DNA of 64,000 nt from Microbacterium sp. SA39. Lineage in GTDB: Bacteria; Actinomycetota; Actinomycetes; Actinomycetales; Microbacteriaceae. Location: the NCBI RefSeq assembly GCF_000967865.1, contig NZ_JXRU01000035.1:62001-126000 (forward strand), read 5' to 3'. Position numbers and translations under genes: made by a program. Position 1 is the first letter of the stretch, and every line of letters starts with the position of its first letter. Below are positions 38,444 to 48,182 of the stretch, in pieces. A model generated the notes under the pieces. The model worked only from the letters and a program-made list of their open reading frames with translations. It was not told the origin of the DNA and searched no databases.

Positions 38444-41443
38444 TCAGCGGGTCTCGATGATGCTCGGGCCGTTCGACAGCGCACGCACGGTGAGTTGGGC
38501 GGGGATCTGCTCCTGCATCGCCTCGACGTGGCTGATCACGCCGACGGTGCGGCCGCCCTGGCGCAGTTCGTCGAGAGTGCGCATCGCCACGTCGAGCGTG
38601 TCGCCGTCGAGTGATCCGAACCCCTCGTCGATGAAGAGCGTGTCCAGACGGATGCCGCCGGCACGCGCCGTGACCACCTCCGCGAGCCCCAGTGCGAGGG
38701 CGAGCGAGGTGAGGAACGTCTCTCCGCCGGACAGCGACTGGGGCGGACGGGTCTGGCCGGTGAATGCGTCCGACACCACGATGCCGAGGCCGGAGGCGGC
38801 GCCCCGCGCGGCCAGCGCGTCGGAGTGCTGCAGCTGGTAGCGGCCGGTGGACATGTCGTAGAGGCGACGGTTCGCCGCCTCTACGATCTCTTCCAGCTCT
38901 GCGGCGAGGACGAAGGTCTCCAGCGTCATCTTGCGGGTGTTCGCACCGCGCCCCGCGATCGTGTCGGCCAGCCCCTGCAGCACCTCGAACTCGGCCGCGT
39001 CCTCGGCGGTCCTCGCGTGCTCCGACGCGGCCGAGGCGATGAGTCCTTCGAGGCGCTCCGCGGTACCGGCGGCACGACTCGCCTCGTCGACCGCACGCAT
39101 CCACACCGCGCGCGCAGTCGCTGCGGCCTCTTCGACGGGCGAGAGGTCGATGGGCTCTTCCGGGAGGGTCCGCAGTTCGAGATCGAACAGCGTCGCCCGC
39201 TCCTTCTCCCGCTGCCCCGCGTGCCGGGTGATCCGCAGGTCGAGAGCGTCCTGGGCGGCCGTCGTCCGCAACGCGCTCTCGACGGCGGCGACGTCTTCGA
39301 AAGCCGAATCCGACAGCGCCGCATCGCGCTCGTTCTCGGCCTCGTCGAGTGTCCGAGCACGCCGCGTGCGCTCGGCGACGGCCTCGGCGAAGCGGCGTGC
39401 GGCCGAGACCTTGGCGGCGCCGTCTGCGAGGCGCTCGGCGACGGTGTCGAAGGATCCGCGGGCCTCCGCGACCAGGGCGCGGTTCTCGGCGACACGTTGC
39501 GCCAGTACGACGAGGTGTTCCCGCGCCGCCGAGAGCGCCGCATCGTCTTCAGCCCGTCGCTGGTCGAGCTTCTCTGCCCGACCGGCGAGGTCCTGCAGCC
39601 GGGAGTCGAGTTCCGTCTGGCGCTCCGCGGCCGCGACCGCCTGCGCGTGCGTCTCGACGGCGCCCGCGAGCGCCGCCTCGGCCTGCGCGACCGTGCGGCC
39701 GTCGGCGCGCGTCTCAGCCGCCGCGAGTTCGGCTCGGAGCGCCGACGCGGTCGCTGCGGCGTCGCGTTCGCGCTCGGCGGCGGAGTCGCGGGTCGCCTCT
39801 GCGGCGGCGATGTCGTCGGCGGAGACCGGGTCGGCATGCGTCGCCGGTGTCGGATGCTCGTGCGCACCGCACACCGGGCAGGGCTCGTCGTCGACGAGCC
39901 CTGCCGCGAGCTCGCCGGCCATCCCGTCGAAGCGTCGTTGTCTCAAGCGGGCCAAGGCGCTCTGCGCGGTGGCGTGCTCTGACGTGGCCGCCGCGAGCCG
40001 CTGCTCCGCGAGCGTATGCTCCGCGCGCAGGCGCTCCGACTCTCGGGCGGCGTGCAGTCGGGATTCGGCCGTCGCCTGCGCCGTGAGCAGATCGGCCGTG
40101 CGGTCGGCGCTGCGCCGCGCGTCGTCGCGTTCGACGGTCAGCGCGACGATCTGCGCGGGCAGGTCGGCGCGCTCCGCATCGACGGCGTCGATGCTCGCAG
40201 CGGCCACCTCCACGGCGACTTCCGCGGAGCGCAGCTCGGCGGAAAGCTCCGATTCGCCCGCTTCGAGGCGGGCGGCGCGCTCCCAGCCACCGCTCTCCTT
40301 GAGCTGCGCTTCGGCCCACGCCTCCAGGTCTTCCTCCACGACGAGACCGAACGACTCCCAGGATTCTCTGGCCTCCTGCTCGGCTCCGCTCGCGCTGTCG
40401 AAGGCCACCCGGGCCCGCAGAACGGCGGCGATGGTCGATCGCAACGCCTCAGCCGATCGCGCGTCCGAGAGCTCCGCACGGGCGGCCGCGATGGACGGCT
40501 CCTCGGCGTCGAGGCGGTCGAGCGCCGCTCGGGCACGATCGCGCTCGATCTGGGCGCGCTGCTCCTCGCGTATCGTCGCGAGGGCCGCGTCGGACGCCGT
40601 CGCCCGTTTCTCGGCGTCAGCTCGCTCGGACGCGCGACGCTCTGCACGGTAGTCGGCGCGTGCCTTCGCCCGTTGCAGATCGTCGAGACGCTCCGCGGTC
40701 GTGCCGGTCAAGATCGGACCTGGAGAGGCCTCCGGCCCAGCCCCCTCTTCGGCGCTGTCGCCCCAGAGCTCTGCCGAGGAGACGAGCCGTTCTGCTTCCT
40801 CGAGGCGCGCGCCGACGGAAGCGAGGCGCGCACCGAGAGCTTGCTCGGCCGCACGGCGCCGCTCGTCGAAGCGCGATTGCACGTCTTCGAAGCGCTGGGT
40901 GCCGAACAGCCTCCGCAGCAGCGACTGGCGATCTTTGCTGCCGGCGAGCAAGAACTCCGAGAAACGATTCTGCGCCAGCAGGATGACCTGCAGGAACTGC
41001 TCGCGGCTCAGCTGCAGGATGTCGTCGAGCTCGGTGGCGACGTCGACCGCCCTGGCTGCACGACCGACCCAACCGGCATCCGTCCACTCTTCGAGCGACA
41101 CCGCCGACGCCTGCTTCGTCATTCCGCCACCGCGCTTGGCGGGACGCACGTACTCGGGTGAGCGCGTGACGCGGAACCGACCGGCGGATGCGCTGAACTC
41201 GACGACGACCTCGGACACGTCGTCTGGTTCGCAGTGGTCGCTGCGTAGACGCTTCTCGCCGCCGTCATAGCGCGGCACACCGCCGTAGAGTCCGAAGCAG
41301 ACAGCGTCCAGGATGCTGGACTTGCCGGCGCCCGTGCGACCTGCGATCAGGAAGATGCCGTCGTCGGCGAACGCGTCGAAGTCGACGGTCTGGCGCGACC
41401 GGAACGGGCCGAATCCCTCGACCTCGAGACGGTGAAGGCGCAT
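38444..41443 (-). CDS. sbcC: Nuclease SbcC (SMC-like ATPase)
   Basis: A 999-residue Rad50-type ATPase that partners SbcD to open DNA hairpins and clean double-strand ends. The N-terminal Walker A is GRTGAGKSSILDA. Two long alanine/arginine-rich coiled coils flank the zinc hook CPVCGAHEHP near residue 520. The C-terminal signature LSGGETFLTSLALALGLAE and Walker B TLFIDEGFGSLDGD are intact. Its ATG follows directly on the sbcD stop (TAGATG), so the two are coupled. Confidence 0.95.
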   Translation of the reverse strand: MRLHRLEVEGFGPFRSRQTVDFDAFADDGIFLIAGRTGAGKSSILDAVCFGLYGGVPRYDGGEKRLRSDHCEPDDVSEVVVEFSASAGRFRVTRSPEYVRPAKRGGGMTKQASAVSLEEWTDAGWVGRAARAVDVATELDDILQLSREQFLQVILLAQNRFSEFLLAGSKDRQSLLRRLFGTQRFEDVQSRFDERRRAAEQALGARLASVGARLEEAERLVSSAELWGDSAEEGAGPEASPGPILTGTTAERLDDLQRAKARADYRAERRASERADAEKRATASDAALATIREEQRAQIERDRARAALDRLDAEEPSIAAARAELSDARSAEALRSTIAAVLRARVAFDSASGAEQEARESWESFGLVVEEDLEAWAEAQLKESGGWERAARLEAGESELSAELRSAEVAVEVAAASIDAVDAERADLPAQIVALTVERDDARRSADRTADLLTAQATAESRLHAARESERLRAEHTLAEQRLAAATSEHATAQSALARLRQRRFDGMAGELAAGLVDDEPCPVCGAHEHPTPATHADPVSADDIAAAEATRDSAAERERDAAATASALRAELAAAETRADGRTVAQAEAALAGAVETHAQAVAAAERQTELDSRLQDLAGRAEKLDQRRAEDDAALSAAREHLVVLAQRVAENRALVAEARGSFDTVAERLADGAAKVSAARRFAEAVAERTRRARTLDEAENERDAALSDSAFEDVAAVESALRTTAAQDALDLRITRHAGQREKERATLFDLELRTLPEEPIDLSPVEEAAATARAVWMRAVDEASRAAGTAERLEGLIASAASEHARTAEDAAEFEVLQGLADTIAGRGANTRKMTLETFVLAAELEEIVEAANRRLYDMSTGRYQLQHSDALAARGAASGLGIVVSDAFTGQTRPPQSLSGGETFLTSLALALGLAEVVTARAGGIRLDTLFIDEGFGSLDGDTLDVAMRTLDELRQGGRTVGVISHVEAMQEQIPAQLTVRALSNGPSIIETR

Positions 41444-42613
41444 CTAGACGAGCGCCTCCGCGCGCACCCGCTCATCGAGCACGTCACGGATCAGCTGGCT
41501 CTCCGTCTCGGTCGCTCCGTGTCCTGCCCTGACGTGCTCGAGGAAGGCCTCGATGCGCTCGGCATCGGTCACGGCGGCGTGCAGCCGCTGCGAGTAGGTG
41601 CGTTCTCGCTCCTCGGCGACGACCGCGGGCTGATGCTGCACCATCGCGCAGAACGGGAAGCTCTCGCGCAGTCGACGCATGGGCTCGGCCTGCGGCACGG
41701 CGTCGGTGTAGATCGCGCACACCCAGTCGTCGGCATGTGCCGAGACGCTGGCTTCCGAGAGGACTTGCTCGAGGGGTCCGGTGAGCGTGACGAGTCGGCG
41801 CGGCACCGGCAACTCGAGCCATTCGACCGAGGCGAGTCCGGAGGCATCGAGGTCGACGAGCCACGACCCGCGCGGCTTGTCCTGCTCACCGAAGCTGTAG
41901 TGCAGCGGAGCGCCTGCGTAGCGCACGCGGTCGCTGACCTGCTGCCGACCGTGGATGTGTCCGAGAGCGACGTAGTCCGGCCCGTCGAAGACGGCGAGAG
42001 GGACGACATCGAGGCCGCCCTGCCGCACCTCGCGCTCGAGCCCGACCGTCGCATCGACACCGGCGGCGAAGCAGTGCGCGATCGCGACCGAACGCCCGGG
42101 ATTCTTCTGCATGCCCGCTCTCACGAGGTGCATCGCGTGCCCCATCGTCTGCGCCTGGGTGCGGAGCTGACGGCCTTCGGCATCGCCATCGGGCCAGTGC
42201 TGACGCACGATGGCGGGTTCGAGATACGGGATGCCGTAGAAGTGCACCGGGCCGTCGGCATCGGCGAGGGTCACCGGCGTGCCGACCGCGAGAGGATCGG
42301 TCAGCACGTGGATGCCGTCGCGCAGCAACCGCGCCTGGAAGCCGAGGCGCGCCGCCGAGTCGTGATTGCCGCTCGTGACGATCACGCGGGCACCCGTCTC
42401 GTGCAGCGCGACCAGCGCGTCGCCGAGCAGGGTGTACGCCGGCCCGGAGGGAGTCGCCGAGTCGAACACGTCTCCGGCGAGCAGGACGACGTCGACCTCG
42501 TTCTCCTGCACCTGCGCGGTGAGCGCCGCGAGCACCTCGGCCAGCGCGTCCATGGTCGAGTGACCGTGGAACGTGCGACCGATGTGCCAGTCGGAGGTGT
42601 GCAGGATGCGCAT
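41444..42613 (-). CDS. sbcD: Exonuclease SbcD
   Basis: A 389-residue metallophosphoesterase (Mre11 type). The metal ligands occur in RILHTSDWHIGRTF, VVLLAGDVFDSATP, VTSGNHDSAAR and later HCFAAG and GHIHGRQ. ATG 42613 (MRILHTSDWHIG) is preferred; a GTG 6 bp upstream is an alternative. With SbcC it forms the hairpin endonuclease complex. sbcC begins at the very next base. Confidence 0.95.
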   Translation of the reverse strand: MRILHTSDWHIGRTFHGHSTMDALAEVLAALTAQVQENEVDVVLLAGDVFDSATPSGPAYTLLGDALVALHETGARVIVTSGNHDSAARLGFQARLLRDGIHVLTDPLAVGTPVTLADADGPVHFYGIPYLEPAIVRQHWPDGDAEGRQLRTQAQTMGHAMHLVRAGMQKNPGRSVAIAHCFAAGVDATVGLEREVRQGGLDVVPLAVFDGPDYVALGHIHGRQQVSDRVRYAGAPLHYSFGEQDKPRGSWLVDLDASGLASVEWLELPVPRRLVTLTGPLEQVLSEASVSAHADDWVCAIYTDAVPQAEPMRRLRESFPFCAMVQHQPAVVAEERERTYSQRLHAAVTDAERIEAFLEHVRAGHGATETESQLIRDVLDERVRAEALV

Positions 42614-42656
42614 GTTCACAGGCTACGAACCCCATCCGACATTCGGTCCGAGGCGT

Positions 42657-42716
42657 GCCGCGGCATCCGCTTCTGGCAGGTGGATCGCAGGGTCCACCCG
42701 GCGCGGATGCCGCGGC
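42657..42716. repeat. 14-bp perfect inverted repeat with inner stem
   Basis: GCCGCGGCATCCGC (42657-42670) and GCGGATGCCGCGGC (42703-42716) are perfect. Inside, GGTGGA and TCCACC (42679-42684, 42693-42698) form a second stem. It lies 44 bp upstream of sbcD and could terminate the upstream GNAT-like gene on the same strand. The rest of the 180-bp gap holds nothing recognisable. Confidence 0.6.
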
Positions 42717-42798
42717 GCGCTCCAACGCATGGTCTTCAGTGCACGGCGACGCGCCGTCATCCGGCGCGCTCGTAACAGAGCGTCACAATCGGCTCGCC

Positions 42799-43107
42799 TC
42801 AGCGCGAGCGCAGCAGCCGGGCGTGCTCGGGGTGGGCCGCGAACCACTCCGCGACGTACCAGCAGACGGCATCGACCTTGCGATCTCCGCGCGCCTCGAT
42901 GTCGGTCACCGCCCCCTCGACGACCTTGCCCGCGTACCCGTGGCCGCGGAAAGTCGGGATCGTGAACGCTCTGGTCAGCGCGACGGTATGGCCGTCATCG
43001 CGATAGTCGAGCACGCTCACCAGCCGTCCATCACGCATGAGGGTGTAGCGCGATTCATCCTTCTCGTCGGTCAGGATGAACCCGCCGACAGTCGTCGAGA
43101 TCGTCAT
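42799..43107 (-). CDS. GNAT-like N-acetyltransferase (COG2388/YjdJ type)
   Basis: A 102-residue short acetyltransferase. The acetyl-CoA loop is TIPTFRGHGYAGKVVEGAV, with the R-G-x-G-x-A pattern. The C-terminal C-W-Y-V-A-E-W-F sequence followed by HPEHARLL is typical of this group. Relatives include human NATD1; the substrate is unknown. The start at ATG 43107 is taken because upstream residues do not look coding. It is divergent from the leader peptide promoter. Confidence 0.85.
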   Translation of the reverse strand: MTISTTVGGFILTDEKDESRYTLMRDGRLVSVLDYRDDGHTVALTRAFTIPTFRGHGYAGKVVEGAVTDIEARGDRKVDAVCWYVAEWFAAHPEHARLLRSR

Positions 43108-43147
43108 CCGAGCAACGTTACGCCCGCTTCCCCGGCCGGGGCACGTT

Positions 43148-43177
43148 TTGACACGGGGTGACACGATCGGACATAAT
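43148..43177 (+). promoter_or_regulatory. Consensus-like sigma-70 promoter giving a leaderless transcript
   Basis: TTGACA (43148-43153), a perfect -35, and CATAAT (43172-43177) are separated by 18 bp. The expected transcript start, about 7 nt on, falls on the ATG at 43184. A message beginning with its start codon is common in actinobacteria. Confidence 0.75.
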
Positions 43178-43183
43178 CCCCCC

Positions 43184-43285
43184 ATGACCACCAACGCGCG
43201 CCCTTTGTCCGCCCAGGAGGCGAACAGGACTGCCGGGATGATGATGCCCGGTCGCGTTGGCATGTGTTGCCGAATGTGTCGCTGA
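43184..43285 (+). CDS. Probable leaderless Met/Cys-rich leader peptide
   Basis: A 33-residue open frame starting at the predicted transcript start: MTTNARPLSAQEANR then TAGMMMPGRVGMCCRMCR and stop. Five of the last 15 residues are methionine and three are cysteine. No ribosome binding site precedes it, as expected for a leaderless start. Polycysteine leader peptides that tune sulfur genes by ribosome stalling are known from mycobacteria. This one has mixed Met and Cys codons and precedes a structured untranslated region and an orphan winged-helix regulator. Translation and function are inferred. Confidence 0.6.
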   Translation: MTTNARPLSAQEANRTAGMMMPGRVGMCCRMCR

Positions 43286-43304
43286 ACGAACAGCTACCCC
43301 GCCT

Positions 43305-43414
43305 GACTCGAACTTCTCGCCATCTGCGAGACCAGAGTCACCGAGCATCCACCCTTGCTCGCCTCCCGGCTCCGCCGGTCATTCATGCAACGCATCAGAG
43401 CCGTTCGCCGGCTC
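43305..43414 (+). promoter_or_regulatory. Row of hairpins between the leader peptide and the regulator gene
   Basis: Four stems can form: a nested one GACTC/GAGTC (43305-43309, 43335-43339) with TCTCG/CGAGA inside; CGAGC/GCTCG (43342-43361); CCGGC/GCCGG (43366-43378); and GAGCCG/CGGCTC (43398-43414). The last ends 7 bp before the GAGGA ribosome binding site (43422-43426). GCCGG at 43374-43378 can also pair with CCGGC at 43408-43412, giving an alternative fold. This is what an attenuator would look like. Confidence 0.5.
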
Positions 43415-43436
43415 ACGTCCTGAGGACTTCATCATC

Positions 43437-44156
43437 ATGTCGAACATCGCACTTCTCGAGCGTCCCGCCACCGCCGCCCAGACCCGCACCGCCCGTTCGT
43501 CGCAGCCCGAGGCCGCCGCTCCTCTGAGCGCCGGCGCCGCCGACCTGCCCGCCGTCCGCTCGCCGCGCGGCTTCGCCCTCTACGTCGGACTCGACGAGAT
43601 CAAGGCGGCCGAGGCCGGAGTGAGCCTCCCCCTCCTCGTCGACGCCCTCCGCCGCACCCTCGCCGAGCTCGCACCCGGCGCCGAGACCCACGCCACCGTC
43701 GCCCTCGCCCCGCACGGATCCGGAGGCCGCGACCTCGACGTCGTCCGCCTCGCCCTGCAGGAGCCCGGTGCCATCGCCCGCACCAAGGCCGCTGCCGAAG
43801 AGGACACCGTCGAGGAGGAGACCGGCGTCACCGTCGACATCTCCCGCAAGCGCGTGCTGATCGACGGCGAGTCCGCCGCCTTCACCTACAAGGAGTTCGA
43901 GCTGCTGCAGTACCTCGTCCTCCGCGAGGGACGCACGATCGAGCGCTCCGAGCTCGTCTCCGCCCTCTGGCAGGCGCAGGATGACGAGACCCCCGGCGAG
44001 CGCACGATCGACGTGCACGTGCGTCGCCTTCGCGCCAAGCTCGGCCGCTACGAGGACATCGTCCGCACGGTGCGCGGCATCGGCTACCGTTTCGACCGGC
44101 ACGCCGACGTCGTCATCCGCTACGGCCACGGCACGCCTTCGCCCGACCGCTTCTGA
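43437..44156 (+). CDS. Winged-helix transcriptional regulator without receiver domain
   Basis: A 239-residue orphan regulator. A disordered N-terminus (residues 1-40) leads to a small alpha/beta domain (about 40-115, with FALYVGLDEIKAAEAGVSLP). After an acidic linker, a Trans_reg_C (OmpR/PhoB-type) winged helix occupies about 130-225: FTYKEFELLQYLVLREGRTI and RTIDVHVRRLRAKLG and VRGIGYRF. There is no phosphorylatable receiver, so a different signal must be sensed. GAGGA lies 10 bp before ATG 43437. It is probably controlled by the upstream leader peptide. The downstream glycosylase gene starts 46 bp later. Confidence 0.82.
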   Translation: MSNIALLERPATAAQTRTARSSQPEAAAPLSAGAADLPAVRSPRGFALYVGLDEIKAAEAGVSLPLLVDALRRTLAELAPGAETHATVALAPHGSGGRDLDVVRLALQEPGAIARTKAAAEEDTVEEETGVTVDISRKRVLIDGESAAFTYKEFELLQYLVLREGRTIERSELVSALWQAQDDETPGERTIDVHVRRLRAKLGRYEDIVRTVRGIGYRFDRHADVVIRYGHGTPSPDRF

Positions 44157-44202
44157 GAGTCTCCGCTCCGTCTCTGTCGGCGCCGCCGCGTAGGGTGGGC
44201 GC

Positions 44203-45162
44203 ATGACCCTGACAGCGGATGCCGGAGCGGCAGCGACCGCTCTCGACGCACCGCCGAGAGACGCGACGTATCGGCCTCGTCACCCTCTGAACCTCATGGC
44301 CACGGTGGCAGTGATGCGCCGCGGAGGAGCCGATCCGACGACCGTGGTCGACGGCGGAAGGTTCTGGCGGGCGATGCGAACGGAGGCAGGTCCGGCCACT
44401 CTCCTGCTTCGCGCCGCCGGCGATGAGGTCAGGGCTTCCGCATGGGGCCCCGGAGCCGACGAGGCGCTCGATCGGGTCCCCGACCTGTGCGGCGCACGCG
44501 ACGACGCCACGGGCTTCGACGCGTCGCGGCATCCGCTCATCGCCGAGGTCGCGCGCCGCAATCCCGGCCTGCGCCTCGCACGGACCGACGAGGTCTTCAA
44601 CGCCCTCGCCGGCTCGATCCTCGAGCAGAAGGTCACCACCATGCAGGCATTCGGAGCCTGGCGGTTCCTCGTGACGCGTTTCGGCGAGCGCGCCCCCGGG
44701 CCCACACCCCGACCGATGTTCACCGCGCCCCCGGCATCCGTCTGGCGCACGATCCCGTCCTGGTCCTGGCACCGCGCCGCCGTGGAACCGCCGCAGTCGA
44801 AGACGCTCGTCCAGGCGGCCGCGCGCGGCGACAGCATCGAACGGGCGATGCGCACGGCCCTCACCGGAGCCGATCGCGACCGCGTGCTCACGAGCCTCCC
44901 GGGGATCGGCGTGTGGACCTCGGCCGAGACCCGCATCCGCGCCCTCGGTGATCCGGATGCCGTGAGCGTGGGCGACTTCCACCTGGCGCATGAGGTAGGC
45001 CATGCGCTCGCCGGGAAGCGCACCGACGACGACGGGATGCTCGAGCTCCTCGCGCCGTGGGAGGGGCAGCGTCAGCGGGTCATCCGCCTCATCTTCGCCA
45101 GCGGTGTGAAAGAGCCGCGGCGCGGGCCGCGTCTCGCGCCCGAGAACCATCGCGACCGCTGA
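44203..45162 (+). CDS. AlkA-like DNA-3-methyladenine glycosylase
   Basis: A 319-residue HhH-GPD superfamily base-excision enzyme. The helix-hairpin-helix is LTSLPGIGVWTSAETRIRAL, followed by AVSVGDFHLAHEVG with the catalytic aspartate. An ILEQKVTTMQAF helix upstream matches AlkA-type enzymes. The N-terminal 90 residues form the extra beta domain of that group. It removes alkylated bases. No iron-sulfur cysteines follow, unlike in MutY/EndoIII. Confidence 0.88.
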   Translation: MTLTADAGAAATALDAPPRDATYRPRHPLNLMATVAVMRRGGADPTTVVDGGRFWRAMRTEAGPATLLLRAAGDEVRASAWGPGADEALDRVPDLCGARDDATGFDASRHPLIAEVARRNPGLRLARTDEVFNALAGSILEQKVTTMQAFGAWRFLVTRFGERAPGPTPRPMFTAPPASVWRTIPSWSWHRAAVEPPQSKTLVQAAARGDSIERAMRTALTGADRDRVLTSLPGIGVWTSAETRIRALGDPDAVSVGDFHLAHEVGHALAGKRTDDDGMLELLAPWEGQRQRVIRLIFASGVKEPRRGPRLAPENHRDR

Positions 45163-45185
45163 ACGCGCGCCCCTAGGCTGAGGTC

Positions 45186-45383
45186 ATGTCCCGCAGAGCG
45201 CTCCGAATCTCCGTCACCGCCGGCCTGCTGATCGTCGGCGTGGTGGTCGGGCTGATCTTCCAGAACGTATGGCTCGGCATCCTGCTCGCGGCCATCGTGT
45301 GGCTCGGCTGGTTCCTCGGCTACGAGTCGCGCCGCGGCAACAACGCCGGCGTCAACGACGAGGACCACGGCGTCGAGCTCTGA
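45186..45383 (+). CDS. Small two-segment membrane protein
   Basis: A 65-residue protein with a basic start (MSRRALR), two hydrophobic segments (about residues 9-27 and 29-46) and an acidic tail ending NNAGVNDEDHGVEL. I do not recognise the family. It starts 23 bp after the glycosylase stop and may be cotranscribed. It is convergent with the siderophore ABC operon. Confidence 0.7.
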   Translation: MSRRALRISVTAGLLIVGVVVGLIFQNVWLGILLAAIVWLGWFLGYESRRGNNAGVNDEDHGVEL

Positions 45384-45401
45384 GGACTCGCGGCGGCGGC
45401 C

Positions 45402-46157
45402 TCAGTAGTAGACCGCGAGCGGACCGGACGGCCCGTCGACGACCCGCACCTCGGTGTCGAAGACTCGCGTGAGGACGGCATCCGTCATGATCTCCGACGG
45501 CGGTCCGAACTCCACGACGGCGCCGTCCTTCATGGCGCAGATGTGGTCCGCGTAGTGGCCGGCGAAGTTCACGTCGTGCAGGACGATCACGATCGTGCGC
45601 CCGAGCTCCTCCGCGGCCCGCCGCAGGTGCTTCATCATCTGCACCGCGTGCCGCATGTCGAGGTTGTTCAACGGTTCGTCCAGCAGCACGAACTCGGTGT
45701 CCTGCGCGAGCACCATCGCGACGTATGCGCGCTGCCGCTGACCCCCGGAGAGTTCATCGAGGTACCGGCCCTCCAGCGCGCCCAGGTCGAGGAAGTCGAT
45801 GGAACGGCTGATGACCTCCTCGTCGGCGCGGTTCAGCCGACCCTTCGAATGCGGGAACCGGCCGAAGCCCACGAGCTGCCGCACGGTCAGCCGGGTCACG
45901 AAGTGGTTCTCCTGGCGGAGGATCGACACGATCTTCGCGAGGTCGGCCGAGCGCGTCGAGGCGACGTCGTATCCAGCGATCTCGATCGAACCGGCATCCA
46001 TCCCGTTCAACCGTCCAATCATCGTCAGGAGCGTCGACTTGCCGGCGCCGTTGGGTCCGATGAGCGCGGTGATCCCGCCGGCAGGGATCTCGAGATCGAC
46101 CGGGCCGATCGCGACCTCGCTGCTGTAGTCACGGCGCACGCCGTCGAGTGAGATCAC
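45402..46157 (-). CDS. Iron-siderophore ABC transporter ATP-binding protein
   Basis: A 251-residue FepC/YclP-type ATPase. Walker A is GPNGAGKST, the signature is LSGGQRQRAY, Walker B is FVLLDEPLNNLD and the switch is VLHDVNFA. The start is GTG 46157, overlapping the permease stop (GTGA). It closes the leftward binding protein-permease-permease-ATPase operon. The VLHDVNFAGHYADHI end is typical of the siderophore branch. Confidence 0.93.
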   Translation of the reverse strand: MISLDGVRRDYSSEVAIGPVDLEIPAGGITALIGPNGAGKSTLLTMIGRLNGMDAGSIEIAGYDVASTRSADLAKIVSILRQENHFVTRLTVRQLVGFGRFPHSKGRLNRADEEVISRSIDFLDLGALEGRYLDELSGGQRQRAYVAMVLAQDTEFVLLDEPLNNLDMRHAVQMMKHLRRAAEELGRTIVIVLHDVNFAGHYADHICAMKDGAVVEFGPPSEIMTDAVLTRVFDTEVRVVDGPSGPLAVYY

Positions 46158-47203
46158 AGTCGCCCCTTTCTGAGGATGACGATGAGGAACACGACACCGC
46201 CGACGAGCTCGATGAGGATCGAGACCATCCCCTGCGCGTAGAACACGTTCTTCATCACGAAGTACGCGCCGGCGAGCACCGCGAACGCCGTGAGCACCGC
46301 GACCGGGAAGATGAGCCGGTGGTCGTGGGTGTCGGCGAACTGGTATGCCAGCGTCGCGACGAGGAACCCGAGGAACGTCATGGGTCCGACCAGCGCGGTC
46401 GACGTCGCCATCAGGACCGCGACCAGGAACAGCACGATCAGCAGCTCTCGCCGGTGGTCGAGCCCGAGCGACCGCGCGGCATCCGGACCGAGCGACATGA
46501 GGTTCAGCCGTCGCGACCGCATCCACAGCAGCGCGGCGGCGCCGATGCACAGCGGGATCGCGAGGGGCAGATACGAGGCGTCGGCATTCGACACGTTGCC
46601 GAACATCCGCGCCGCCAGCACGTCGAACTCGCTCGGCGTGAGCAGACGCTGCATGAACGTCGAGATCGCGGCGAGACCTCCGCCGATGATGATGCCGATC
46701 AGCAGCATGATCTGCAGGTTCCCGTACCGGCCGGAGAGCAGCCAGCCGTACAGCGCCATCGCGAGACCCACCATGATCACGATCTGCAGTCCGAACTGCC
46801 ACAGGCCCTGGATCGCCACCAGGCCCGCGACGCCGAACAGGTACACGGTCGTCGTCTGCACCACCCGGTACAACGACTCGAAGCCCATGATCGAGGGGGT
46901 GATGATGCGGTTGTTCGCAATGGTCTGGAACGACACGGTCGCCACGGCCTGTGCGACCGCGACGATCGCCATGACGGTGACGTTGGTCAGGCGGTACTGC
47001 GCGATGCGCCAGAAGCCCTCCGAGCCGAACGGCATCGGGTTGTCCCAGGCGAGCACTCCGGCGCCGAAGACGAGGGAGGCGACCACGAGGATGCCGAGCA
47101 CGACGACGTAGCGACGACGCGCGCGGATACTCACGAACGCGCCGGACGACCGGTCTACGACCCCGGCCCCACGCACGTCAGCCACTTCTCGGACCTCAGC
47201 CAC
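46154..47203 (-). CDS. Iron-siderophore ABC transporter permease (YclO-like)
   Basis: A 349-residue FecCD-family permease with about nine to ten membrane segments. The family pattern includes ARMFGNVSNADASYLP and GPMTFLGFLVATLAYQFADT. The start GTG 47203 overlaps the other permease gene by 8 bp. The two permeases form a heterodimer, as in YclNO of Bacillus. Confidence 0.92.
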   Translation of the reverse strand: MAEVREVADVRGAGVVDRSSGAFVSIRARRRYVVVLGILVVASLVFGAGVLAWDNPMPFGSEGFWRIAQYRLTNVTVMAIVAVAQAVATVSFQTIANNRIITPSIMGFESLYRVVQTTTVYLFGVAGLVAIQGLWQFGLQIVIMVGLAMALYGWLLSGRYGNLQIMLLIGIIIGGGLAAISTFMQRLLTPSEFDVLAARMFGNVSNADASYLPLAIPLCIGAAALLWMRSRRLNLMSLGPDAARSLGLDHRRELLIVLFLVAVLMATSTALVGPMTFLGFLVATLAYQFADTHDHRLIFPVAVLTAFAVLAGAYFVMKNVFYAQGMVSILIELVGGVVFLIVILRKGRL

Positions 47204-48182
47204 GGCGGCGCTGCCGGAGGAGGAGCAGGATGAACACGACCGCGCCGACGATGCCGAGGATGAGCGACACGGGCACTTCGAAGGGCATGATGATCGTCCG
47301 ACCGATGATGTCGCAGACCGTGACGATCGCGATCCCCAGCAGGCACACCCACGGCAGGTTGCTGCGCAGGTCGTCGCCGCGCACCATGGCGACGATGTTC
47401 GGCACGATCAGACCGAGGAACGGGAGGTTGCCGACGACCACCGTGACGACCCCCGTCGCGATCGCGATCAGGACCGTGCCGAGCAGGATGATGCGGTTGT
47501 AGTTCACACCGACGTTCGTCGCGACCTCTTCGCCGAGGCCGGCGATGGTCAGCCGATCGGCGACGAGGAACACGACCACGCCGACGAGGGCGACGATCCA
47601 CAGCATCTCGTACTGCCCGCGGAGCACCGAGGTGAAGCTGCCCGCGAACCAGATGCCGAGGTTCTGCAGCGAGTCGGTCGCGAGCGCGAAGTAGGTCGAC
47701 ACGGCACCCACCACCGCGCCGAGCATGATGCCGACGATCGGCACGATCAGCGAGGACTTCAGCGAGACGCGTCGAAGGAAGGCGAAGAAGACCATCGTGC
47801 CGATGAAGGCCGCGATCACCGCGCCGGCCATCCGTAACGGGATCGACGGCTGCGGTACGAGGACCATCACCGTGAGGAGTCCGAGACCCGCCCACTCCGT
47901 GGTGCCGGTCGTGGTCGGCTCGACGAAGCGGTTCTGGGTGAGCAGCTGCATCACGAGGCCCGACATCGCCATCGCGGCGCCGGCGAGCACGAGGGCGATC
48001 GTGCGTGGCACGCGTGTGATCTGGAACATCTCGGAGCCGTCGGCGGCGCCCGCGATGTCGTAGACGCCGGTGAACAGCGACACCGCGAGGAGCGCGACGA
48101 CGACGAGGACCCCGATCAGCAGCTTGGGGTCGAACAGCCGCGTCGCGGCACGGGGCGGCGAGGCGATGTCAGCAGAGGTCAT
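47196..48182 (-). CDS. Iron-siderophore ABC transporter permease (YclN-like)
   Basis: A 328-residue FecCD-family permease with nine or more segments. It shows RVPRTIALVLAGAAMAMSGL (the conserved RLPR-type start of the family) and LGTVLIAIATGVVTVVVGNLPFLGLIVPNI-like sequence with G-x-x-x-F-L-G-L-I-V-P-N. Its ribosome binding region contains a tandem 12-bp duplication (48183-48206). It follows the binding-protein gene across an 80-bp gap that holds a perfect hairpin. Confidence 0.92.
   Translation of the reverse strand: MTSADIASPPRAATRLFDPKLLIGVLVVVALLAVSLFTGVYDIAGAADGSEMFQITRVPRTIALVLAGAAMAMSGLVMQLLTQNRFVEPTTTGTTEWAGLGLLTVMVLVPQPSIPLRMAGAVIAAFIGTMVFFAFLRRVSLKSSLIVPIVGIMLGAVVGAVSTYFALATDSLQNLGIWFAGSFTSVLRGQYEMLWIVALVGVVVFLVADRLTIAGLGEEVATNVGVNYNRIILLGTVLIAIATGVVTVVVGNLPFLGLIVPNIVAMVRGDDLRSNLPWVCLLGIAIVTVCDIIGRTIIMPFEVPVSLILGIVGAVVFILLLLRQRRRG

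Follow-up and report, generated by a model that had tools for sequence, protein, structure and literature searches.

Within a 64,000-nucleotide stretch of the Microbacterium sp. SA39 genome (the window), a promoter, a short open reading frame with Met and Cys codons, and the gene of an orphan winged-helix regulator follow one another on the plus strand. The features are given below by window position, with the basis of each assignment in brackets.

43148 to 43177, plus strand: sigma-70-type promoter, TTGACA (43148-43153), 18 bp, CATAAT (43172-43177) (promoter scan, locus comparison)
43184 to 43285, plus strand: leader open reading frame of 33 codons, MTTNARPLSAQEANRTAGMMMPGRVGMCCRMCR, then a stop (sequence; family-wide conservation)
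43191 to 43260, plus strand: helix P1, formed by 43191-43198 and 43253-43260, enclosing the structured portion of the frame (window fold, covariation)
43204 to 43228, plus strand: hairpin P2 (window fold; re-dealing mixed, against it in Microbacterium and for it in other genera)
43232 to 43252, plus strand: hairpin P3, three Met codons in its loop (minimum-energy fold of the window, covariation)
43238 to 43246, plus strand: ATGATGATG (Met19-21), exactly complementary to CATCATCAT at the start of the regulator (complement counts, sub-clade alignment)
43265 to 43282, plus strand: Cys-Cys-Arg(CGA)-Met-Cys-Arg codons, CGA-ATG invariant (alignment of 132 loci)
43380 to 43395, plus strand: P4, CATTC-AT-GCAACGCAT, predicted to pair with the Cys-Arg-Met codons (window fold; small matched-arm difference)
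43422 to 43426, plus strand: Shine-Dalgarno sequence GAGGA of the regulator (sequence; similar run before the start in other loci)
43430 to 43439, plus strand: CATCATCATG, complement of the Met codons that includes the regulator start codon (invariant in 15 of 15 sub-clade rows)
43437 to 44156, plus strand: orphan winged-helix regulator of 239 amino acids, Trans_reg_C at residues 145-219 (Pfam)

The initial annotation had described a near-perfect promoter placed for a leaderless start, and our scan agreed. The TTGACA/CATAAT pair was the sole sigma-70-like site between 43000 and 43500, where shuffled sequences gave a mean of 0.0, and six C residues lie between CATAAT and the leader ATG at 43184. 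Among 132 distinct leader loci, TTGAC or a variant (TTGCC, TTGTC, or TTGAT) sat at −38 to −36 in 129, the base at −1 was C or T in 131, and the ATG itself was invariant. Because the TTGAC-like box keeps this position in 129/132 loci, transcripts should start on the leader ATG, as judged from the DNA sequence. An intrinsic terminator (a GC stem followed by a T run) was looked for between 43000 and 43500, and none was found. Rfam gave no match in 40000-48000 up to an E value of 1, and comparisons with PADLOC and plasmid DNA likewise gave no match. The intergenic region holding the leader promoter is common to a divergent gene for a small GNAT-type acetyltransferase (Acetyltransf_CG; 42799-43107, minus strand).

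The 33-codon mixed Met/Cys frame had been proposed from this one locus, and its conservation in Microbacteriaceae was to be looked for; both the frame and its Met/Cys codons were found to be conserved there. A strong orthologue of the regulator was present in 56 of 59 Microbacterium genomes. One of these loci lies at a contig edge and has no upstream sequence, and in the 55 usable loci the leader was upstream of the regulator in every case. A leader profile matched 272 of 398 Microbacteriaceae genomes in 68 of 85 genera, with one match per listed genome; of the 272 matches, the part that was read comprises the profile-search loci and 40 further regions. Over a sample of the order, 22 of 297 genomes matched, all of them Microbacteriaceae. 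Among 81 loci chosen through their leader (L064-L085 and L089-L147), 80 had the regulator downstream in the same orientation, and the remaining one ends at a contig edge. The order sample lists 23 family genomes, each with the regulator; 22 of them had the leader by profile, and the 23rd (G304) has a diverged leader that ends MRRMCA and scores 37.4 bits with the RNA model. One family member, at a locus (L249) outside the 132-locus set, has a leader that ends MRRMCA and lacks Cys-Cys.

The codons of the frame are conserved to different degrees. Counted by alignment column over 132 loci, C31 and M33 were present in 132, M21 in 131, M20 and C34 in 129, C30 in 128, and M19 in 106. Thus, the adjacent Cys pair has its first member in 128 and its second in all 132 loci, and the Cys-Arg-Met-Cys run near the stop has CGA-ATG in 132/132 and the Cys after Met in 129/132. 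CGA is a rare codon, making up 3.4 per cent of the Arg codons in the regulator genes (115/3399). The strictest signal of the leader is this rare CGA followed by ATG, not the Cys run. Indels were codon-sized and kept the frame, the stop varied among TGA, TAA, and TAG, and Cys codons switched between TGT and TGC, the sole change seen at the second Cys. With its invariant ATG, the frame appears to have been selected as if translated. The first half is also constrained in Microbacterium, where the codons TCC GCC and GAG GCG AAC were fixed in 64/64.

The downstream gene had been called a winged-helix regulator without a receiver domain, and Pfam agreed with this call. Trans_reg_C was the sole domain found, and a receiver was absent, so this is not the architecture of an OmpR/PhoB response regulator; the N-terminal part had no Pfam match. 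Among solved structures, the DNA-binding part was best matched by 8hml, 8hig, and 8hih, which are listed as OmpR-family or transcriptional regulatory protein and which we take to be GlnR. The protein is like GlnR-type orphan OmpR-family regulators in its DNA-binding part and differs from them in an N-terminal part without a Pfam match. An AlphaFold model of the regulator (40 rows from the Microbacterium set) had a mean pLDDT of 66.4, with residues 1-43 and 89-126 below 50.

A row of stems with competing structures had been noted between the promoter and the regulator, and P1 to P4 were indeed present in the window fold. Over the family, P1 and P3 show covariation, P2 is mixed, and P4 is weak. 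We compared real helix arms with arms re-dealt among sequences; re-dealing and shuffling ignore relatedness, so that these counts are optimistic and are not probabilities. For P3, the real arms gave −13.45 kcal/mol versus −11.82 kcal/mol for re-dealt arms (0/200; 66 distinct arm pairs whose Met run is intact), and the real arms of P1 also fit better than re-dealt ones, with 0/300 in Microbacterium and 0/300 in other genera. P2 divided the family: re-dealt arms exceeded the real ones in stability in 297/300 trials in Microbacterium, and the reverse held in other genera (1/300).

Distinct leaders numbered 120 and were 99, 102, or 105 bases long; a gapless alignment was made from 78 leaders, all of 102 bases. 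In the structure tested on it, P1 and P3 came from the window fold and from our reading of the sequences, and P2 came from RNAalifold. This structure paired 78.8 per cent of cells, versus 35 to 47 per cent when slid, had 59 cells changed on both sides versus 28 in shuffles (0/500), and reached a covariation score of 0.204 versus at most 0.109 when slid, although one control of this test favors the tested structure somewhat because P1 to P3 were drawn from the fold, the reading, and RNAalifold on the same data. Shifting the P3 register by one base weakened it. Unconstrained, RNAalifold gave a weak and partly different fold of the 78 leaders (−3.3 kcal/mol), we think because the P3 register shifts between clades. 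Against synonymous randomization, P3 was slightly more stable (mean z of −0.5 and −0.9; individually below 0.05 in 2/61 and 6/68), and the 3′ end of the leader was less structured than its synonymous alternatives (mean z of +1.2 and +0.9).

In the window, the Met codons in the P3 loop are complementary to the region where ribosomes bind the regulator message. In the sub-clade of the window (15 rows), CATCATCATG was invariant and much of the spacer was variable. We searched for the exact complement of every 7-base leader window in the stretch from the leader stop to the regulator start, using the 124 of 132 loci in which a scripted regulator start was found at a gap of 80 to 300 bases; in a few of these 124, the scripted start is doubtful. 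The duplex scores and the ribosome-position folds of the regulator leader given below were computed on the same 124 loci. Complements peaked at the Met codons, with counts of 34 of 61 for Microbacterium (3.2 expected) and 23 of 63 for other genera (2.5 expected). A smaller second peak fell on the Cys-Arg-Met codons in other genera (13/63 versus 1.2). CATCATC was found in 32/61 Microbacterium sequences, 31 of these at −7, and in 28/63 sequences outside the genus, mostly at −18 to −29, just 5′ of the Shine-Dalgarno sequence. When complements of at least 7 bases were counted from −32 to +3 of the regulator start, 61/124 sequences were of the Met type, 10 had the Cys-Arg-Met match only (AAGGATTCGACACCATG and the like), and 53/124 had neither. 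Taken together, the sequences indicate that potential pairing between the leader and the ribosome-binding region is common, not universal.

Several controls bear on how general this pairing would be. In Microbacterium, an intact Met run goes with CATCATC (30/42 versus 2/19); outside the genus, there was no such association (23/55 versus 4/8), and re-dealing Met codons against ribosome-binding regions gave no signal (87/100). Among no-match sequences with an intact Met run, a complement of the loop downstream was no commoner than in shuffles (1/11 versus 1.2; 5/22 versus 6.4). Extending the leader segment gave a positive duplex z in the Cys-Arg-Met class (+0.63, n = 10) and in the no-match classes. 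Pairing would explain the invariance of CGA in the Cys-Arg-Met-type matches only; elsewhere, our guess is that CGA serves as a slowly decoded codon.

We next consider folds calculated with a ribosome placed at different leader positions, in which site opening was found chiefly in Met-type Microbacterium sequences. There, unpaired bases made up 37 per cent of the ribosome-binding region when the leader was free and 55 to 59 per cent when a ribosome covered the Met codons (25 to 27 of 33 open), versus 32 to 37 per cent when it was on the Cys-Arg codons; these values come from nested folding, which cannot show a loop-to-site pseudoknot that would shut the site even with P3 formed. Met-type sites stay shut when the ribosome is on the Cys codons, and since a ribosome there does not open them, the Cys codons need another role. 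Met-type sequences from other genera opened in 3 to 6 of 28 cases with the ribosome over the Met codons and in 10/28 with the whole leader covered; a ribosome at −12 or −9 closed the site in 7 to 8 of 28. For the Cys-Arg-Met type, a P site anywhere from −18 to +9 of CGA opened the site in 3 to 5 of 10. The no-match class showed no general opening, and a ribosome at −9 closed 8/28 sites in Microbacterium.

Outside Microbacteriaceae, similar frames occur before the regulator. In family f6, probably Micrococcaceae, a short CGA-ATG frame was upstream of the regulator in 11 of 18 loci, with none in the other 7, and at least two Cys codons came just before it in 9 of the 11 (CCCRMQP, CCRMHA, CCRRMQA, etc.). 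The leader of one f6 locus, L270, ends VRRMCGRRMPR and has CGA-ATG twice without a Cys pair. By eye, two loci of family f7 (L257 and L262) have other leaderless-looking short frames before the regulator, ending AMMRCVRGLR and QRMLCVRD, a different sort of Met/Cys/Arg ending. None of the f6 and f7 leaders matched RNA model R1 above chance (best E of 0.14), so the fold is shown for Microbacteriaceae only. In f6 loci L253, L256, and L263, two TTGTTAC-like words about 20 bases apart, again seen by eye, lie 5′ of the leader and overlap the promoter region; these words could be a candidate autoregulation site for the OmpR-type regulator. Loci L262, L265, and L273 (f7, f6, and f9) have another neighborhood than Microbacterium, with a different gene just upstream of the regulator, presumably for a uracil phosphoribosyltransferase, given how its end looks.

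When R1 was run over 197 genomes of the class, weak matches appeared in four large genomes of genus g191, and eight further genomes outside the family matched at E values of 3.1e-4 to 0.01. The four g191 matches were leaders, MTTTSSRTLATEAMMTPGARCMCRMCAF among them, that precede an ABC transporter gene. The pattern Met-Cys-Arg(CGA)-Met-Cys was sought in 325 class genomes and matched 20, of which 16 belong to g191, probably Streptomyces. In 16/16 of these g191 loci, the leader stood 163 to 243 bases before metN, with the CGA-ATG of these 16 leaders being required by the search pattern; the other four matches were not before metN. The MetN call rests on TIGR02314 as best match (below its cut-off) together with ABC_tran and NIL domains. 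The metN ribosome-binding region contained CTCGACA in 16/16 loci, which pairs with the Cys-Arg-Met-Cys codons; the duplex had a mean z of −2.55, with p below 0.05 in 13/16. A ribosome on these codons opened the metN site in 4 to 5 of 16 loci, a modest effect. In the window's own genome, no such leader stood upstream of the best MetN match. The metN link lends outside support to a sulfur amino-acid reading of the regulator leader.

The initial annotation had proposed a sulfur amino-acid switch of a new kind. The sulfur link gains from the 16/16 metN leaders and from the MetL leader as described in PMC8079986; the novelty of the kind does not stand, as MetL and the mycobacterial polycysteine leaders are published. 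In that paper, MetL of S. lividans is reported as a leaderless leader before metNIQ and a methionine attenuator whose termination is unclear and which has no typical Rho-independent terminator. The Microbacterium leader is like it in the leaderless message (predicted here from the promoter), in Cys-Arg-Met-Cys near the stop (..CMCRRMCAF in MetL versus ..MCCRMCR here), and in the missing Rho-independent terminator. MetL precedes a methionine importer and has no MMM run, whereas the Microbacterium leader precedes an orphan regulator and has one; because the target differs, we do not class it as MetL. The two may share descent.

Polycysteine leaders that control sulfur genes in mycobacteria, which the initial annotation had mentioned, are in print: they are described as leaderless short frames with contiguous Cys codons that control the next gene through attenuation tied to cysteine supply (Canestrari 2020, cited in PMC9031893 and PMC9094748). 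The leader studied here is likewise a short frame with adjacent Cys codons, leaderless by promoter position, but it has both a Met run and two Cys codons alongside Arg(CGA)-Met, has an orphan regulator as its target, and carries covarying helices in its coding RNA. Earlier, short frames with Cys codons near the stop were described in Actinobacteria before cys and cbs operons, with no conserved terminator hairpins being reported (Seliverstov 2005, PMC1262725). Those leaders share the short frame and the position of the Cys codons with ours; they precede biosynthetic operons, and ours precedes a regulator. By analogy, the Microbacterium leader would work like MetL and the mycobacterial polycysteine leaders. 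A literature search at the level of listings found no publication on this leader before this regulator. The kind of leader is already known; the orphan-regulator target, the structured RNA within the frame, and the complementarity of leader codons to the ribosome-binding region are new here.

We propose that the leader is a cis-acting translational attenuator that responds to Met/Cys supply, and we put the probability of this at about one half. The proposal draws on the computed conservation, promoter position, covarying fold, complementarity (71/124 loci), and site opening (mainly in Met-type Microbacterium); stalling, its signal, the sign of control, and a sulfur-related role of the regulator are what we infer. 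Transcription would start on the ATG, as the promoter suggests, so that every message would open with the leader frame, to be translated without a ribosome-binding site. The leader RNA would fold through P1, P3, and perhaps P2 and expose the Met or the Cys-Arg-Met codons, which would base-pair with the site where ribosomes load on the regulator message and reduce translation of the regulator. When Met or Cys is scarce, the ribosome would be held on those codons, with the rare CGA perhaps slowing it further. The held ribosome would cover the complementary strand and free the site, and the regulator would be made when sulfur amino acids are short. A wider version is tentative, and we think it rather doubtful: the sulfur codons would do two jobs, as hungry codons and as the blocking strand, and Cys-Arg(CGA)-Met-Cys would control the metN importer in Streptomyces as well as the orphan found in Microbacteriaceae and in Micrococcaceae-like relatives, which would then be the sulfur amino-acid regulator of these organisms.

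Other explanations start from the same features. The peptide itself, with MMM about 12 residues before the Cys-Cys-Arg-Met end near the stop, might stall its ribosome with a small molecule or a metal. We presume a likeness here to TnaC and to copper-sensing leaders, the Met/Cys-rich peptide ends could bind copper, and the distance from Arg-Met to the stop is short and nearly fixed. Such nascent-chain arrest is unlikely in our view, as the MMM to Cys-Cys spacing varies by one codon, many codons do not vary even in their nucleotides, the RNA helices covary, and finding this ending in front of a methionine importer speaks for Met/Cys. The constraint at the nucleotide level, together with complementarity to the adjoining gene, weighs against a functional microprotein acting in trans, for instance with the regulator protein as its target. 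A peptide conserved beside one gene across the family would suit such a role; a similar ending precedes metN, which encodes a different protein, and we consider this explanation very improbable.

The covarying P1 and P3 and the invariant loop and tail sequence would equally fit an RNA-only element, a riboswitch-like ligand-binding RNA that is readable as a peptide by accident. There was no Rfam match for such an element, and the ATG that coincides with the expected transcript start in 132/132 loci, the frame-keeping indels, the second Cys changing only between TGT and TGC, and the changing stops make it improbable. Attenuation could also act on transcription, Rho-dependent or otherwise, with the leader ribosome deciding whether polymerase reaches the regulator gene. 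The lack of an intrinsic terminator between 43000 and 43500 is compatible with this, Rho has been proposed for the Cys leaders of Mycobacterium (PMC1262725), and termination at MetL is called unclear (PMC8079986). However, a mechanism of this sort has no need of the complementarity, which is centered on the ribosome-binding region, and we regard it as about as unlikely as nascent-chain arrest.

If translational attenuation by the leader is correct, a family-wide regulator of unknown function gains a testable input signal, and a link is drawn from its leader to that of the Streptomyces methionine importer. The pairing would offer a concrete mechanism for leaders without terminators, including the published MetL. 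A coding leader that folds and complements the downstream ribosome-binding region would also be a clean case of codon choice set by RNA pairing and decoding together.

Further copies of the leader were considered in the window's genome, where a single profile match reached 1.2e-20 and three others had E values of 0.7 to 2.3. Matches to TGYTGYCGAATG were rejected as further copies, as they fell in three related genes in another frame. Two more matches, to TGYCGAATGTGY, were also rejected, their frames extending for 41 and 52 codons. The same genome (G000) holds a repeated gene family of three closely similar genes that start MMLPNELVWVMEKLG (L276, L277, and L278), located on one strand within 12 kb of contig C37 at about 126.5, 136.3, and 138.5 kb.
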